Shown here: in pieces, positions 48,157 through 59,026 of the stretch | Layout: every line of letters begins with the position of its first letter | How positions within the stretch are numbered: the stretch's first letter is position 1 | NCBI RefSeq assembly: GCF_004768785.1 | Contig: NZ_SRMQ01000005.1 | Coordinates: 62,001 to 126,000 of the forward strand | Length of the DNA stretch: 64,000 nucleotides | Source of the DNA: Caproiciproducens galactitolivorans | Lineage (GTDB): Bacteria; Bacillota; Clostridia; Oscillospirales; Acutalibacteraceae | Reading direction: 5' to 3' | Notes under the pieces: model-generated | What the model saw: only the letters and a program-made list of their open reading frames with translations | What the model was told of the DNA's origin: nothing | Databases searched by the model: none | Translations under genes and position numbers: made by a program

Positions 48157-49635
48157 TTATAGAATAATGCATATCAAACCGTTGCAGCCTTCATTAATAA
48201 TACGCTCGATGGTTTCGCGTACTTTATCGCGCGCGTCGTTAGGCATGCGGTACAATTTATTATGCAACCCTTCGTTCACCAGCTCGTGCAGGCTTTTTCC
48301 GAAAATATTGGATTCCCATATCTTGGAAGGATTCTCTTCGAATTCTTTCAGCAGATAGGTAATCAGCTCCTGCGACTGCTGTTCGGATCCGACAATTGGC
48401 GTCAGTTCCGCTGTAATTCTTGTCTTCAACATATGTACGGACGGCGCGGCCGCCTTTAACCGGATGCCATATTTCCCGCCCTGCTTGATGATTTCCGGCT
48501 CCTCGAGCGAAAGCTCCTCCATATCCGGCATAACAATGCCGTACCCGTTTTCCTGTACATCCTGATAGGCGTCCTTGATTTTGTCGAACTGTGCCTTCAT
48601 TTTCGAAAGATTCAGCATATTTTCCATCAGGCTGCCTTCATCTTCAATGTCAATTCCTGTTTTTTCACCCAGAATTTTATAAAAAAGATTTTGATTCAAG
48701 GATACGGCCATCCGGGCGCATCCGGTTCCTAAATCAATGGATACGGTATTGGCGCCGTTGACAAATTCACATTTTTTGATGTCATCAACAATCGAATTGA
48801 TTTCGCGGATTCTGGAAATTTTCGAGGCGGACTCCTGTAGTGCACCGTAAACGGCGAAACGGAGCCAATGATTTTTTTCAAGGTTGGAAATCCAGCGCGG
48901 CATTTCCACCTTAATAGATTTCACCGGGAACTCGAATAAAATCTTGGAAAGAATATTGCGAATTTCCTCTTCCTCTAATTCCAGACAATTGATCGGAAGG
49001 ACGGGAACGCCGTATTTTTCCTGAAGCTGCGCAGACAGGTTCGCGGCGTAATTGGATCGCGGTTCCGTACAATTCAGCAGGACGATAAACGGCTTATTGA
49101 TCTCCTTGAGCTCGTTGACTACCCTTTCCTCCGCTTCTTCATATTCTTCGCGGGGAATATCGCTTATGCTACCGTCCGTCGTAACCACCAGACCAATGGT
49201 CGAATGCTCGGTTATTACTTTTTTCGTGCCTAGCTCTGCAGCCATATTAAAGGGAATCGGCTCCTGATACCAGGGTGTCATAACCATCCGTGGCATGTCG
49301 TCCTCAATATAGCCAAGCGCGCTTGGAACGATGTAGCCGACGCAGTCAATCATGCGAACCGAAAACGTCGCGCTGTCGTCGATTTTTACGGTTACAGCCT
49401 GTTCCGGAATAAATTTCGGCTCCGTTGTCATAATTGTGCGGCCCGCGGCAGACTGAGGCATTTCATCGATCGCCCGGTCACGGCTGTAAGTGGATTCCAT
49501 ATTGGGAATGACGACGGCATCCATGAATTTTTTTATAAAAGTGGATTTTCCGGTGCGTACCGGTCCAACCACTCCTACATAAATATCGCCGTTTGTACGC
49601 TGGGAAATATCACTATAAATATTGCGTTCTTCCAT
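48157..49635 (-). CDS. spoIVA: Stage IV sporulation protein A
   Basis: 492 residues, full length. N-terminal GTPase-like ATPase with Walker A GPVRTGKS (24-31), DCVGYIVPSALGY and the TDGSISDIPREEY segment; middle and C-terminal domains end with GCNGLICIIL. It polymerises around the forespore as the base of the spore coat. Downstream of the SipL-like gene on the same strand, about 55 bases apart. In Bacillus SpoVM anchors SpoIVA; a SpoVM gene is 1.7 kb away. Confidence 0.96.
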   Translation of the reverse strand: MEERNIYSDISQRTNGDIYVGVVGPVRTGKSTFIKKFMDAVVIPNMESTYSRDRAIDEMPQSAAGRTIMTTEPKFIPEQAVTVKIDDSATFSVRMIDCVGYIVPSALGYIEDDMPRMVMTPWYQEPIPFNMAAELGTKKVITEHSTIGLVVTTDGSISDIPREEYEEAEERVVNELKEINKPFIVLLNCTEPRSNYAANLSAQLQEKYGVPVLPINCLELEEEEIRNILSKILFEFPVKSIKVEMPRWISNLEKNHWLRFAVYGALQESASKISRIREINSIVDDIKKCEFVNGANTVSIDLGTGCARMAVSLNQNLFYKILGEKTGIDIEDEGSLMENMLNLSKMKAQFDKIKDAYQDVQENGYGIVMPDMEELSLEEPEIIKQGGKYGIRLKAAAPSVHMLKTRITAELTPIVGSEQQSQELITYLLKEFEENPSKIWESNIFGKSLHELVNEGLHNKLYRMPNDARDKVRETIERIINEGCNGLICIIL

Positions 49636-49690: not shown

Positions 49691-51223
49691 TCACATTGGG
49701 ATCAACAGCATCCCCCTGTTCTCAACGAAATCACCAGTAAGCTCATTTTCCAGCTTAATCGCATCAACGGAGGTACCGTATTCCCGTGCAATGTTCCAAA
49801 GGTTTTCGCCCGCGTCCGCGTAGTATATACTGAGCACCGCGGATTTGTCTTGCACCCTGGGTTTGGTTTCATCGGGTGTAACGTCCGTTATCACTTTGAT
49901 ATTCAATTGGCTGTATACTCCCGTATTTAGTTTCAGCTCGGCTTTTATGTCGATTCCGCTGCCCGTAATACGGTAGCTGATACCGGCTACTGTCATGGTC
50001 GCGCTGCATTTGGTGCCGTCCGCCCCCGGATAGGGACGGATGTAATCAAAATCAAGCATGCGTTCAAAATAGACTGGCTTGTTTTCCGCGTTTCGCGCCA
50101 ATATGCAAACATTTAATTTGCCTTTGTACTGAATTTCCCCGTTGACATAGTCGGCGGAAACCGTATTCATTTCATTCCAGATATCAATGACTTTCGAAAC
50201 AGGTGTATCGTCCAGCGCAACCGTTGTTTTATGGATATAGGTGTCGTTGATGAATTCAATCAAATTATCAAGGGATTTCTGCTTGCTGCTGATGTTCATT
50301 TCACACAGCTTGGAATAAGCGTCGGTTACAAGCGTTACCTCTTTGTTTTCAAAAGCTGTGGCGCTCGCAAGCACTTTCGCGTTCACTTCAAAATAGGTTT
50401 GGTCGCCGGAATAATCGTTTTTGATCTGCGTATCCAATCCCGTTACGGTAAGTTGGACGTTATAGGCACAGTTTTCGCTGATTCCGTCACAGTCCAACAA
50501 TTCGCTGAACGGGATTGCATATTCCATAACTTCCAACGCCATTTCGTCGTCTATGGAGGAGTACACGAATTTAATACAGACCTCGCCCTTGATCATCAGT
50601 TTATTTCCAACGGCACTGTAATCCTGCACCGTTGCAAAGGCATCCGCGCGTACAATGCTGTCGGCGGCTGGTTTGCCCTGTCCAAGCTCTAAAACTTCAT
50701 CGACATTGAATTGCTGCTGCCTGAATCCCGCCACCTTATTCAAGGTTATTTTGTTTTTTTGTTGTTCTACCCCTTCGCCGTCGATATTCGAAATCACTTC
50801 GTTTTCCGTTTGGGCGGTTACCCGCGCACATACGGAAAAGGATCCATGAATATCGAGCCGGCGTGGGCTGGTTGCACGGCAATTGATATATTCTACACGG
50901 GTAAACGCATATATCTGTGCGTTATCGGCATTTTGCTTCAAATTAATAACAGTAGAGAAAGATTGATTGCTTTCATAGCAGCGAACGGCCATGCCGCCGG
51001 AATCCAGATAGAGGATTGTGAGCGTGTAATTTCCGTCGAGTTCCAACCGGTCGCCCGTAATATTGCGGGAAGCAATGCGGGGATAGACCTGGCATTTTAA
51101 TATGCGCTGTATATCGGGGCAGTAATCCGGCAGGTTAATGTCGAGATCTACCGGCTGCTCCTGGCAGCCGTCATAAATGATTTCATTGGCCGCCAATGCC
51201 TCACGGCTAAGCATATATTCCAT
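49691..51223 (-). CDS. sipL: DUF3794 plus LysM protein, SipL-like
   Basis: 510 residues. Repeated DUF3794 beta-rich domains (about 30-420, with DINLPDYCPDIQRILKCQ at the start) and a C-terminal LysM (about 463-509, GENLWNIAREYGTSVDAI). In Clostridioides difficile, SipL (CD3567) has this architecture and binds SpoIVA through LysM. Here the gene is immediately upstream of spoIVA on the same strand, so partner proteins are probably made together. Confidence 0.9.
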   Translation of the reverse strand: MEYMLSREALAANEIIYDGCQEQPVDLDINLPDYCPDIQRILKCQVYPRIASRNITGDRLELDGNYTLTILYLDSGGMAVRCYESNQSFSTVINLKQNADNAQIYAFTRVEYINCRATSPRRLDIHGSFSVCARVTAQTENEVISNIDGEGVEQQKNKITLNKVAGFRQQQFNVDEVLELGQGKPAADSIVRADAFATVQDYSAVGNKLMIKGEVCIKFVYSSIDDEMALEVMEYAIPFSELLDCDGISENCAYNVQLTVTGLDTQIKNDYSGDQTYFEVNAKVLASATAFENKEVTLVTDAYSKLCEMNISSKQKSLDNLIEFINDTYIHKTTVALDDTPVSKVIDIWNEMNTVSADYVNGEIQYKGKLNVCILARNAENKPVYFERMLDFDYIRPYPGADGTKCSATMTVAGISYRITGSGIDIKAELKLNTGVYSQLNIKVITDVTPDETKPRVQDKSAVLSIYYADAGENLWNIAREYGTSVDAIKLENELTGDFVENRGMLLIPM

Positions 51224-51292
51224 AGGGCTCTCTCCTTTTCCTGTTTCTACCTAATTGTTATTCTAATCTTGTACGATTTATACCAACTGCGC

Positions 51293-51324
51293 AAAAAAAT
51301 ACCGGCTGCTGCTGCAGCCGGTAT
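51293..51324 (-). terminator. Terminator after spoVM
   Basis: ATACCGGCTGC and GCAGCCGGTAT arms with a four-base loop, followed on the minus strand by seven Ts. It begins 8 bases after the spoVM stop. Confidence 0.86.
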
Positions 51325-51331
51325 GCATTGT

Positions 51332-51412
51332 TTATTCTTCCTTTTTAATATGGAATACCTTCCTAAGTACAAATCCCCAGAATTTGGAGCTCCTGACAAC
51401 GACTACTTTCAT
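51332..51412 (-). CDS. spoVM: SpoVM, 26-residue spore-coat anchoring peptide
   Basis: 26 codons, the exact length of Bacillus SpoVM. Aligns without gaps: K2, K10, F11, G13 and R17 agree, and residue 7 is basic in both (R for K). It is an amphipathic helix with a Lys-rich end. GGGAGG lies 8 bases before the ATG. A strong terminator follows. The place, after thiN in the rsgA-thiN region, is where spoVM sits in Bacillus. Residue 9 is Ser instead of the Bacillus Pro9. SpoVM marks the convex forespore membrane and holds SpoIVA. Confidence 0.85.
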   Translation of the reverse strand: MKVVVVRSSKFWGFVLRKVFHIKKEE

Positions 51413-51427
51413 AATAAAGACCTCCCA

Positions 51428-51592
51428 TTATGTTCCACACCTTAAAAGTGTGATCCCTAATATGACCAGTATGGTCGCTACTATAAACAGGATTAATCCC
51501 GTTGGGCAAAAACCAGAGACAGCCAAACCGAGCCCGAATGCAACCGCTAATTGTCCTGGGGGGCATCTATTTTTTCTGCAATTGCACCTCAC
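51428..51592 (-). CDS. 54-residue Cys-rich single-span membrane peptide
   Basis: About 54 codons from GTG 51592, with GGTGA five bases upstream; a TTG at 51604 is an alternative start. N-terminal MRCNCRKNRCPPGQ has three Cys within ten residues; one hydrophobic span (about 15-48) and a Cys near the end follow. Stop lies 15 bases before spoVM, whose ribosome binding site falls in that gap, so they share a transcript. Not recognised. Reading frame with long hydrophobic run and no interruption makes it likely real. Confidence 0.65.
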   Translation of the reverse strand: MRCNCRKNRCPPGQLAVAFGLGLAVSGFCPTGLILFIVATILVILGITLLRCGT

Positions 51593-51672
51593 TGCCGTCA
51601 CCAACCATCACTGCATAATTCTTTTCCTGTTCTTATATCCCAGTATATTCCGTGAGGGGCAAATTGGTTCAT

Positions 51673-52302
51673 TTATGAAAGTAAAAAAATAAGGGCGTTT
51701 CCGCTATGTACAATAATCTGTGCACGGTTCGTAAGAATCACATTACTGATGCCAATCGGGTTTACGGAAGAGATGCAGGCGTCACGCAGCGGATATTTCA
51801 TCCCTACATAGCTGACTGTGCAAAAAGCGGACCCAAACGGAAATACGGATACCGTACAGCCCTTTAAATCGCTCAAAGTCATCCTGCCGTCGCTCAGAAG
51901 AAAAACGCGGCAGCCATCGTCCGCAATTTCCGCCCTGTATCCCTGTGAAACAAGAAACTGTAACGCGCACAGGTTCGCATAGGAATGATCCATGCGCCCG
52001 CCTAAGGAGCAGAGAAGGGTAAACGAATTGTATCCCCTCCTCAGGGCTTCCCGTATCGCCGCCATCATGTCCGTATCGTCCTTTTCCGTTTGCAGCCGGA
52101 TGGTCTCAACTCCTTGCGGCAGATCCGATTGAAGCGAATCGAAATCGCCGATAAGCAAATCCGGAACGATATTGTTTTGCTTTGCAATATCTAGTCCACC
52201 GTCGGCGCAGATGACGTAAGAATCGTTAAAATCCACATCAGCCGGAATACGGCTGCCCGGCGAGGAGCCGATTATAATACATTTCTTTATTTCAGGTTCC
52301 AT
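51673..52302 (-). CDS. thiN: Thiamine pyrophosphokinase
   Basis: 209 residues. Adds pyrophosphate to thiamine. N-terminal CADGGLDIAKQN and LIGDFDSL are the family catalytic segments; later LLCSLGGRMDHSYANL. It overlaps rsgA by 16 bases. In Bacillus an rpe gene separates rsgA and thiN; here rpe is absent. Confidence 0.93.
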   Translation of the reverse strand: MEPEIKKCIIIGSSPGSRIPADVDFNDSYVICADGGLDIAKQNNIVPDLLIGDFDSLQSDLPQGVETIRLQTEKDDTDMMAAIREALRRGYNSFTLLCSLGGRMDHSYANLCALQFLVSQGYRAEIADDGCRVFLLSDGRMTLSDLKGCTVSVFPFGSAFCTVSYVGMKYPLRDACISSVNPIGISNVILTNRAQIIVHSGNALIFLLS

Positions 52303-56987: not shown

Positions 56988-58322
56988 CTATTTTTTTCGA
57001 AAAGCCGCAATAAAAAAGCCGTCAGTACCATGAAAATGCGGCATCAGTGTAAGCTGGTTTGCCGGTTCATCCACAGAATGCTGAATCGTGGCGGGCAAAT
57101 GAAGCGGCAACGGTTCGAAATCGTCGTGGTTATTTATAAATCTATTTGTTACTTCGAAATTCTCTCTTGGGTTTAAAGTACAGGTAGAATAAAACAATAT
57201 TCCATTGTCCTTTACCAGTTTTGAAGATTTACACAGAATACCGTACTGCAAATCAGGCAAACTGTCAATAGCTTGCTTCGATTTATATTTAATTTCCGGC
57301 TTGCGGCGGATAATTCCCAATCCGGAGCATGGAACGTCGCAAAGCACCCTGTCGGCAGGAGAAAGTTCCATTTTCGGGTTAGATGCGTCCCGGACCGCAG
57401 CCTGGATAATCGTCAGCTTTAAGCGTTCCGCACCCTGCCGGATTAACTGCACTTTTCCTTTGTATTGGTCAAAAGCGAGAAGCTCGCCCTGATCCTCCAT
57501 CATTTCAGCAATTGTAAATGCTTTGCCGCCGGGCGCGGAGCACACATCGATCACTCTTTCACCCGGTTTCGGGTCAAACAAAAAACAGCAAAGCTGCGAG
57601 GAAAGATCCTGTATATGAAACAGTCCTTCCCGAAAGCTTTTGCAACTACCGATTGAACCGGTATGTTCCAGTTCTAGTGCGTTAATAAACCATGGTACAG
57701 CTTTTGCTTTGATCCCTTCCTGTTCCAGTCTTGCAATTAAGTTTTCCTCGGATATGGAAAGATTATTCACTTTTGCGAATATAGGCGGCTTCTGAAAGGC
57801 GCTTCGCAGCAGACCGGTCATGCAATCGTGCCCGTAGGCTTCCTCCCAAAGTCGGATAATCCATTCCGGACAGGAGTATTGAATGCTTAGAGCCGTTCGC
57901 GGTTCCGTTTGAGCATCCGGCATTTTTATCTGGTCGATGTTCCGAATGAGGGAACGCAGAACCGCATTAATAAAACCGGAAGCTTTTGCGGCCTTGTTGG
58001 CCTTTGCTAGATTTACTGACTCGTTTACCGCCGCAGAATTTGGAATTTTTTCAAGATAAAGAATCTGAAACGCGCCCATCCGAAGGATTTCAAGCACAAC
58101 CGGCGACATTTTCGAAACAGGAGTTTTTGAAAATTGATTTAGAATATAATCGAGCGTCAACCTGCGCTCCAGAACACCGTAAAAAATAGCGGACGCCAGC
58201 GCTTTGTCCCGTTGATCTAGTGAATAGGCTTCCAGCGTTTTATCAAGAACAATGTTGGAATAGCCTTCGTCAACGTTTACATGCAGCAACGCCGCAAGCG
58301 CCGCGGACCTTGCGTTATTCAT
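56988..58322 (-). CDS. rsmB: 16S rRNA m5C967 methyltransferase RsmB
   Basis: 444 residues. NusB-like N-terminal helical domain (1-140) and a Rossmann methyltransferase with CSAPGGKAFTI, catalytic Cys region CDVPCSGLGI and the STCTLNPREN motif. Modifies 16S rRNA C967. The ATG overlaps the protease stop (TAATG). Confidence 0.95.
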   Translation of the reverse strand: MNNARSAALAALLHVNVDEGYSNIVLDKTLEAYSLDQRDKALASAIFYGVLERRLTLDYILNQFSKTPVSKMSPVVLEILRMGAFQILYLEKIPNSAAVNESVNLAKANKAAKASGFINAVLRSLIRNIDQIKMPDAQTEPRTALSIQYSCPEWIIRLWEEAYGHDCMTGLLRSAFQKPPIFAKVNNLSISEENLIARLEQEGIKAKAVPWFINALELEHTGSIGSCKSFREGLFHIQDLSSQLCCFLFDPKPGERVIDVCSAPGGKAFTIAEMMEDQGELLAFDQYKGKVQLIRQGAERLKLTIIQAAVRDASNPKMELSPADRVLCDVPCSGLGIIRRKPEIKYKSKQAIDSLPDLQYGILCKSSKLVKDNGILFYSTCTLNPRENFEVTNRFINNHDDFEPLPLHLPATIQHSVDEPANQLTLMPHFHGTDGFFIAAFRKK

Positions 58323-59026
58323 TAATCCCTACCCCGTCTGTTCCCCGCAAGGACAACCAATCTTAAAAGGGACATGATCGCGGCAAAACTGGCCGCCAGA
58401 TAAGTCATCGCAGCAGCTTTCAATACTTTTTTTGCGCCTTCAAGCTCATCGGGGTACAGAATCCCCGCTTCGTCCAGCGCGCGGATTGCGCGTATGCTTG
58501 CGTTGAATTCAACCGGCAGGGTTACCAGTTGAAACAGCACAGCCAGCCCGAAGAGGGCAATACCCAGATACACGACAAAACTATACCTCACCGGCAGAAT
58601 CAGGCCGATAATCACGAGCGGCATCCCCAAACTGGAGCCGAAATTTGTTATCGGAACCAGAACTGTACGAACTTTATTGGGAAAATAGCCCTGCGCGTGC
58701 TGAATCGCGTGACCGGCCTCATGTGCTGCCACGCCCACAGAAGCAATGCTTGTGGACGAATAAACATCGTCAGATAGACGGATTGTGTTATCGCGCGGGT
58801 CAAAATTGTCCGTAAGTCTGCCCTGGATGCGCTGTATCTGCACACCGGCAGCACCGCCGAACCGCGCGACGCTGTCTGCCGCCTGCGCGCCAGTCATGTT
58901 CCGGATTGTCAAGATGCGGGAATACTTCTCAAATGTGAACTGTACTTTAAACTGAGCATACATAGTGATGATCAGAGCCGGAAGAATAAATATGAAATAT
59001 GTATAGTCAAAATAATAGAATCCCAT
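58322..59026 (-). CDS. Zinc metallopeptidase, YugP family
   Basis: 234 residues. N-terminal span (about 8-27), zinc motif HEAGHAIQHAQGY (about 101-113), then two or three C-terminal spans. Matches neutral zinc metallopeptidase_2 family; role unknown. It sits between fmt and rsmB, a place seen in many Clostridia. Confidence 0.9.
   Translation of the reverse strand: MGFYYFDYTYFIFILPALIITMYAQFKVQFTFEKYSRILTIRNMTGAQAADSVARFGGAAGVQIQRIQGRLTDNFDPRDNTIRLSDDVYSSTSIASVGVAAHEAGHAIQHAQGYFPNKVRTVLVPITNFGSSLGMPLVIIGLILPVRYSFVVYLGIALFGLAVLFQLVTLPVEFNASIRAIRALDEAGILYPDELEGAKKVLKAAAMTYLAASFAAIMSLLRLVVLAGNRRGRD

Follow-up and report, generated by a model that had tools for sequence, protein, structure and literature searches.

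A spoVM with serine in place of Pro9, and a conserved small gene for a predicted membrane protein, beside sipL and spoIVA in Caproiciproducens galactitolivorans

The spoVM locus and its neighbours

The window analysed here, a stretch of 64,000 nucleotides from the genome of C. galactitolivorans, carries on its minus strand the gene order prkC-rsgA-thiN-[smORF]-spoVM-sipL-spoIVA, the bracketed small open reading frame (smORF) being unannotated. The spoVM gene itself (51332..51412, minus strand) consists of 26 codons from ATG to TAA and encodes the peptide MKVVVVRSSKFWGFVLRKVFHIKKEE. Its ribosome binding site, GGGAGG (51421..51426, minus strand), is followed after 8 nt by the ATG, and is conserved as GGGAGG in 7/10 same-genus loci besides the window, with other G-rich sequences in 3/10. 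Terminator search and RNA folding located an intrinsic terminator at 51299..51324 (minus strand), comprising an 11-bp stem with 7 G-C pairs and a TTTTTT tract (-21.1 kcal/mol; z -4.0), where the two strands of the stretch hold four terminator-like sites against 0.3 expected from shuffles; a similar hairpin was seen by eye 3' of spoVM in nine other aligned loci of the genus. The first-pass annotation had proposed exactly such an 81-base gene with a GGGAGG site and its own terminator, which the sequence and the curated-model match described next bear out.

The peptide matches the NCBIfam equivalog SpoVM_broad (NF033436.3) over positions 1-26 of 26 with 34.7 bits (cut-off 31; E = 1.2e-8). It has a length of about 26 residues, a lysine at position 2 and a C-terminal amphipathic helix (hydrophobic moment 0.445 for residues 10-23, taken as the helix), and its gene lies near thiN, rsgA and prkC. 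We take Bacillus subtilis SpoVM to be a peptide of 26 residues with K2, K10, F11, G13 and R17, encoded after thiN in the prkC-rsgA cluster; against that peptide, the window copy keeps all five residues, as had been claimed, together with the amphipathic helix, the chromosomal setting and a SpoIVA partner with Gly486, but has Ser9 for Pro9, Phe14 for Gly14 and Val6 for Ile6. The C. galactitolivorans genome (2.58 Mb, 33 contigs) contains a single match to the SpoVM peptide and also encodes Spo0A (279.7 bits, cut-off 200) and a SigE-like factor (334.6 bits, below the 348.6 cut-off). A Pfam scan of the peptide returned no family, a PDB search with it no match, and no clear sigma-E promoter was found. 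SpoVM-like peptides were recovered from 174 further fetched loci, each of the 10 other congeneric genomes searched has an unbroken 26-codon frame at this position, and the window peptide is identical in two other species (G007 and G009), whose DNA differs by synonymous changes only. The curated model and the synteny, together with the neighbouring sipL and spoIVA and the unbroken frame in congeners, identify the sequence at 51412-51332 as a genuine orthologous spoVM, ordinary in kind, and the identity first assigned to it stands.

Two further proposals held in part. The gene had been placed directly after thiN (thiamine diphosphokinase; 51673..52302, minus strand; TIGR01378, 138.5 bits), which does lie upstream, but the smORF (51592-51428) intervenes. 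It had also been expected to escape standard gene callers; this copy passes the NCBI model, but other copies would be missed, since only 42/98 surveyed genomes held a match over the 31-bit cut-off and SpoVM-like peptides were found in 75/98. Galperin et al. 2012 (PMC3533761) likewise describe spoVM as rarely recognised in annotation.

Directly downstream lie a sipL-like gene (49691..51223, minus strand), whose product has the SPOCS domain (PF12673, 118.5 bits) and C-terminal LysM domain (PF01476, 23.9 bits) of SipL, and spoIVA (48157..49635, minus strand; 492 aa; TIGR02836, 728.8 bits over 1-492 of 492). Residue 486 of this SpoIVA, counted on the sequence, is Gly, the residue given for B. subtilis SpoIVA in PMC5607322. 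The three known clostridial basement-layer proteins are thus encoded side by side here, a linkage that, like the second small gene, the first-pass annotation had omitted. The locus differs from that of B. subtilis in having sipL and spoIVA directly downstream of spoVM and the smORF directly upstream, and it resembles Clostridioides difficile in its SPOCS- and LysM-containing SipL and its SpoIVA ATPase, but here the two are encoded side by side just after spoVM.

The run from prkC to spoIVA, smORF included, is present at full or near-full length in 7/10 other loci of the genus and in part in G005 and G009; the G003 region ends before a recognisable sipL. Among 175 loci, many of them in regions cut by contig ends, 63 had a sipL match and 47 a spoIVA match downstream of spoVM on the same strand. 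At four loci of genus g110 (L172, L175, L179 and L232) smORF-spoVM-sipL-spoIVA are kept together, with the prkC, rsgA and thiN matches downstream on the other strand, so that this unit is able to stand apart from the prkC cluster; at L075 (G055), L221 and L229 sipL and spoIVA adjoin spoVM on the opposite strand, the three genes staying close despite inversion. Just upstream of sipL, the alignment of the genus revealed a 45-nt non-coding block (51230..51274, minus strand; GTACAAGATTAGAATAACAATTAGGTAGAAACAGGAAAAGGAGAG) that is nearly invariant in the 10 species aligned, more so than the adjacent non-coding DNA, and is probably the sipL promoter or leader. Elsewhere in the window, 58322-59026 encodes, between genes that we take to be fmt and rsmB, a membrane protein of 234 aa whose HEAGH motif looks by eye like that of a zinc peptidase.

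Variation at residue 9 of SpoVM

According to a figure legend in Ribis et al. 2017 (PMC5607322), Pro9 is the only completely conserved residue of SpoVM. The window copy, with Ser9, lacks this reported hallmark, and residue 9 varies even within its genus (n = 11: Ser 7, Pro 3, Gly 1). Of the survey of 98 genomes, 84 gave a match and 14 none at E<=1; peptides were taken from 75, and the nine with weak fragments were dropped, although spoVM was afterwards found in one of them, G040. A search of 398 genomes at E<=0.01 left 72 with no match. Residue 9 in the 175 loci is Pro in 141, Ser in 29, Thr in three and Gly and Lys in one each. The set grew to 220 peptides, the window's included, when 45 were added from the family, order and class: 25 picked, in part by eye, from the sequence immediately after smORF matches and 20 taken from SpoVM model matches (Pro9 in 20/20). 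Its residue 9 is Pro in 175, Ser in 31, Gly in 6, Thr in 4, Lys in 3 and His in 1. Pro9 is therefore absent from 45/220, including same-genus orthologs of Pro9 copies, a proportion that is not a frequency because several of the searches behind the set kept the best matches to alignment A1 and so favoured sequences like the window's. Given its absence from these copies, we do not treat Pro9, a functional hallmark that the curated model does not demand, as defining membership.

The Pro9-less peptides are of two kinds. In thirty-eight, spread over 13 genera within the window's family, position 9 is Ser, Thr, Gly, Lys or His and Pro8 is absent, and all 38 carry Phe14, a residue present in 61/141 Pro9 peptides of the 175-locus set; the substitute for Pro9 is Ser, Thr or Gly in 35 of them. 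The other seven, from other families of the class (L282, L284, L287, L295, L296, L297 and L298), have Pro8 instead, within the motifs KPGK, QPGK, QPGR, KPSK and KPKK. Across all 45, residues 8-10 read SSK in 19, GSK in 5, SSG in 4, PGK in 4, CKG in 2 and singletons in 11, and by a rule framed after the data were seen, every one has Ser, Thr or Gly at 9, Gly or Pro at 10, or Pro at 8. Ser or Asn occupies position 8 in 123/141 Pro9 peptides. Sequencing error at codon 9 was ruled out, the serine codons TCC, TCG, TCA and TCT being seen in many separate assemblies. The missing proline is, as judged from these sequences, real natural variation across a clade and contradicts the description of Pro9 as the only completely conserved residue; the earlier remark on Ser9 in this peptide was right but understated, as non-Pro9 forms recur across a group of genera.

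Residue 9 has also changed repeatedly. On a SpoIVA tree (51 of 53 sequences, those over 400 aa, with g110 included), five changes between Pro and non-Pro were counted, at least three of them forced by well-supported branches, and on a concatenated RsgA+PrkC+ThiN tree (50 rows) six, at least four of them forced. A first concatenated tree (65 rows; six changes, at least four forced) misplaced genus g110, whose sole prkC and rsgA matches in the fetched regions are non-syntenic; the second dropped the four g110 rows, the long-branched G144 and 10 of 14 non-Phe14 rows. The branch of G009 is oddly long in the concatenated trees, probably because a contig end cuts its prkC. Four Pro9-less genomes with no usable markers (G037, G050, G239 and G281) are in neither tree, and G329 appears in just the SpoIVA tree. 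Both trees place the Pro9 species G004 in a group with four Ser9 species, and genera g118 and g30, in neither tree, each hold Pro and non-Pro states. A single loss of Pro9 is thus unsupported; position 9 has changed at least three to four times on the two trees, with losses and regains not told apart.

Nine hand-picked Pro9-less pairs gave 69.7 synonymous against 23.3 non-synonymous changes (pN/pS 0.08), and eight Pro9/Phe14 pairs a pN/pS of 0.07, so that relaxed selection on Pro9-less copies was not seen. The mean hydrophobic moment was 0.43 in Pro9-less, 0.51 in Pro9/Phe14 and 0.58 in other Pro9 peptides. The repeated changes and the equally strong selection show that SpoVM is under constraint, yet that proline is not the sole solution at residue 9.

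The small gene upstream of spoVM

The smORF (51428..51592, minus strand) encodes from a GTG start a protein of 54 aa, MRCNCRKNRCPPGQLAVAFGLGLAVSGFCPTGLILFIVATILVILGITLLRCGT, or of 58 aa if a TTG at 51604 is used, and its stop lies 15 nt before the spoVM ATG. The protein has a Cys-containing, basic N-terminus and two hydrophobic helices flanking a CPTG turn, and a single-sequence AlphaFold model is a helical hairpin (helices 12-25 and 30-53) of moderate confidence (mean pLDDT 72.7). Searches of Pfam, NCBIfam and PHROGs gave weak, inconsistent matches only, none of those with a shown cut-off reaching it; the smORF is thus predicted to encode a two-helix membrane protein described by no family of these three collections, and it is the least expected and most novel part of the locus.

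A model built from 73 loci finds an ORF upstream of spoVM in 158/175 loci at E<=1, of which at least 85 are outside the training set; 17/175 gave no match. At E<=0.01 it was found in 152 of the 174 loci having 250 nt of upstream sequence, and the model matched nothing else in those regions, whose ORFs total 37,076. The gap between smORF stop and spoVM start is 10-26 nt in at least 129/158 loci. Searching whole genomes of the class found the family in 45/391 at E<=0.001, and of the 30 highest-ranking loci, nine of which come from the window's family, 29 (all but L302) have a SpoVM-like peptide immediately after the smORF. Seventeen of the 45 smORF-positive genomes also match the SpoVM model (E<=0.01), with the two genes adjacent in 17/17. 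Conversely, the SpoVM model has a match (E<=0.01) in 130 class genomes, only 17 of which match the smORF alignment (E<=0.001), and at 20 more distant spoVM loci an upstream ORF was matched at E<=0.01 in nine (a lenient test, with few ORFs and filters off), a hydrophobic small ORF was present in three more, and no such ORF was found in eight. The smORF family occurs in other clostridial families, though not as a universal partner at every spoVM.

Over 12 pairs taken together, the last 35 codons of the smORF are under purifying selection (pS 0.37, pN 0.044), and across 34 rows the window protein's F19, G22 and P30 show little or no variation; two pairs within the window's genus are uninformative (synonymous against non-synonymous changes 2 vs 5 and 2 vs 3). 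Upstream of the smORF, all 11 genus members aligned share a GAATAT block (window 51641-51650), a possible promoter element to which no sigma-E assignment is given.

In C. difficile, a 50-aa gene, CD25622, precedes spoVM and is co-transcribed with it, and is reported as apparently unique to Peptostreptococcaceae (PMC5607322); it agrees with the smORF in size and place, and C. difficile SpoVM differs from the window copy in keeping Pro9 and in being encoded near rpmB. A full-text literature search for CD25622 returned PMC5607322 only, and the titles and abstract openings of the papers listed for spoVM with small or unannotated membrane proteins mention no gene like the smORF. The smORF is probably co-expressed with spoVM, and its function is probably linked to SpoVM or to the membrane that SpoVM binds.

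A SpoVM without Pro9

Our overall reading, to which we assign a probability of about 0.8, is that this is an orthologous and functional spoVM in which Ser9 supplies the helix break, accompanied by a probably co-expressed smORF for a two-helix membrane protein. By analogy with B. subtilis and C. difficile, the mother cell would produce SpoVM, whose amphipathic helix (roughly residues 10-24) would lie on the outer forespore membrane; the peptide would bind SpoIVA and help start the basement layer, with SipL then joining. The helix break of Pro9 would be replaced by Ser9 here and by Thr9, Gly9 or Gly10/Pro10 in relatives. Ser, Thr and Gly often cap or break helices, and from the residues always kept at positions 8-10 we infer that a break, made by other means, still separates the N-terminal segment from the amphipathic helix. 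Ser9 may be tolerated in the Phe14 background, Phe14 offering an extra hydrophobic contact, and forespore targeting is probably kept in this lineage.

That the 26 codons are a chance ORF behind a ribosome-like site has practically no probability left: such an ORF is short and matches nothing in Pfam, but the curated-model match (E = 1.2e-8), the terminator (z -4.0) and above all the orthologs, with a conserved frame at the same place and mostly synonymous changes, already refute and rule it out. Unlikely, to our minds, is that the smORF is a mere translated leader that couples spoVM translation and whose protein has no function of its own. The short, regular spacing between its stop and the spoVM start would suit such a leader, as would the two window-genus pairs lacking a synonymous excess and the C. 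difficile upstream-gene insertion mutant, likely polar on spoVM, that is reported to resemble a spoVM mutant (PMC5607322); against it stand the purifying selection over 12 pairs and the near-invariance of F19, G22 and P30.

A further question is whether Ser9 leaves a real spoVM with a weakened or altered choice of curvature, the coat being placed mainly through SpoIVA-SipL and Pro9 drifting freely. In B. subtilis, P9A is reported to lengthen the helix and to lose localisation (PMC12004969; loss of localisation also in PMC5607322 and PMC4307972), and with Pro9 reported as invariant, Ser9 could impair this choice. The P9A and proline-walk variants resemble the natural forms in lacking Pro9 or having the proline moved, as in the Pro8 peptides, but they are laboratory mutants, and instead of Ala the natural forms have Ser, Thr or Gly at this position or a Gly beside it. 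C. difficile SpoVM is described as largely dispensable and SipL as needed (PMC5607322), so that conservation need not mean an essential role; together with the repeated changes at residue 9 and the lower mean hydrophobic moment of Pro9-less peptides, this favours weakened sensing. Selection on the Pro9-less copies is nevertheless no weaker than on Pro9 copies, and the substitutes, Pro8 forms aside, are nearly all Ser, Thr or Gly. We therefore consider weakened sensing improbable: the alternation of Pro and Ser in one genus, the equal selection and the ever-present helix-breaking or -capping residue lean against the altered curvature sensing that had been suggested for the Ser9 peptide.

SpoVM is a model bacterial sensor of convex membrane, and that model rests on Pro9. 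A clade that has exchanged Pro9 for Ser, Thr, Gly, Lys or His, in several changes and under strong selection, provides natural variants with which a need for proline itself may be separated from a need for a break before the helix. We also raise, with rather more doubt than confidence, the possibility that many clostridial spoVM genes are half of a two-gene unit in which an undescribed helical-hairpin membrane protein of ~50 aa, belonging to the coat basement layer, helps SpoVM to reach or stay on the outer forespore membrane, the SpoVM of the pair in this lineage recognising the forespore although it lacks Pro9. Clostridial coat assembly is described as proceeding without CmpA, SpoVID, SafA and CotE (PMC5607322), and the linked smORF would be a handle on that assembly; it may also serve to flag divergent spoVM copies such as those that escaped Galperin et al. 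(PMC3533761).
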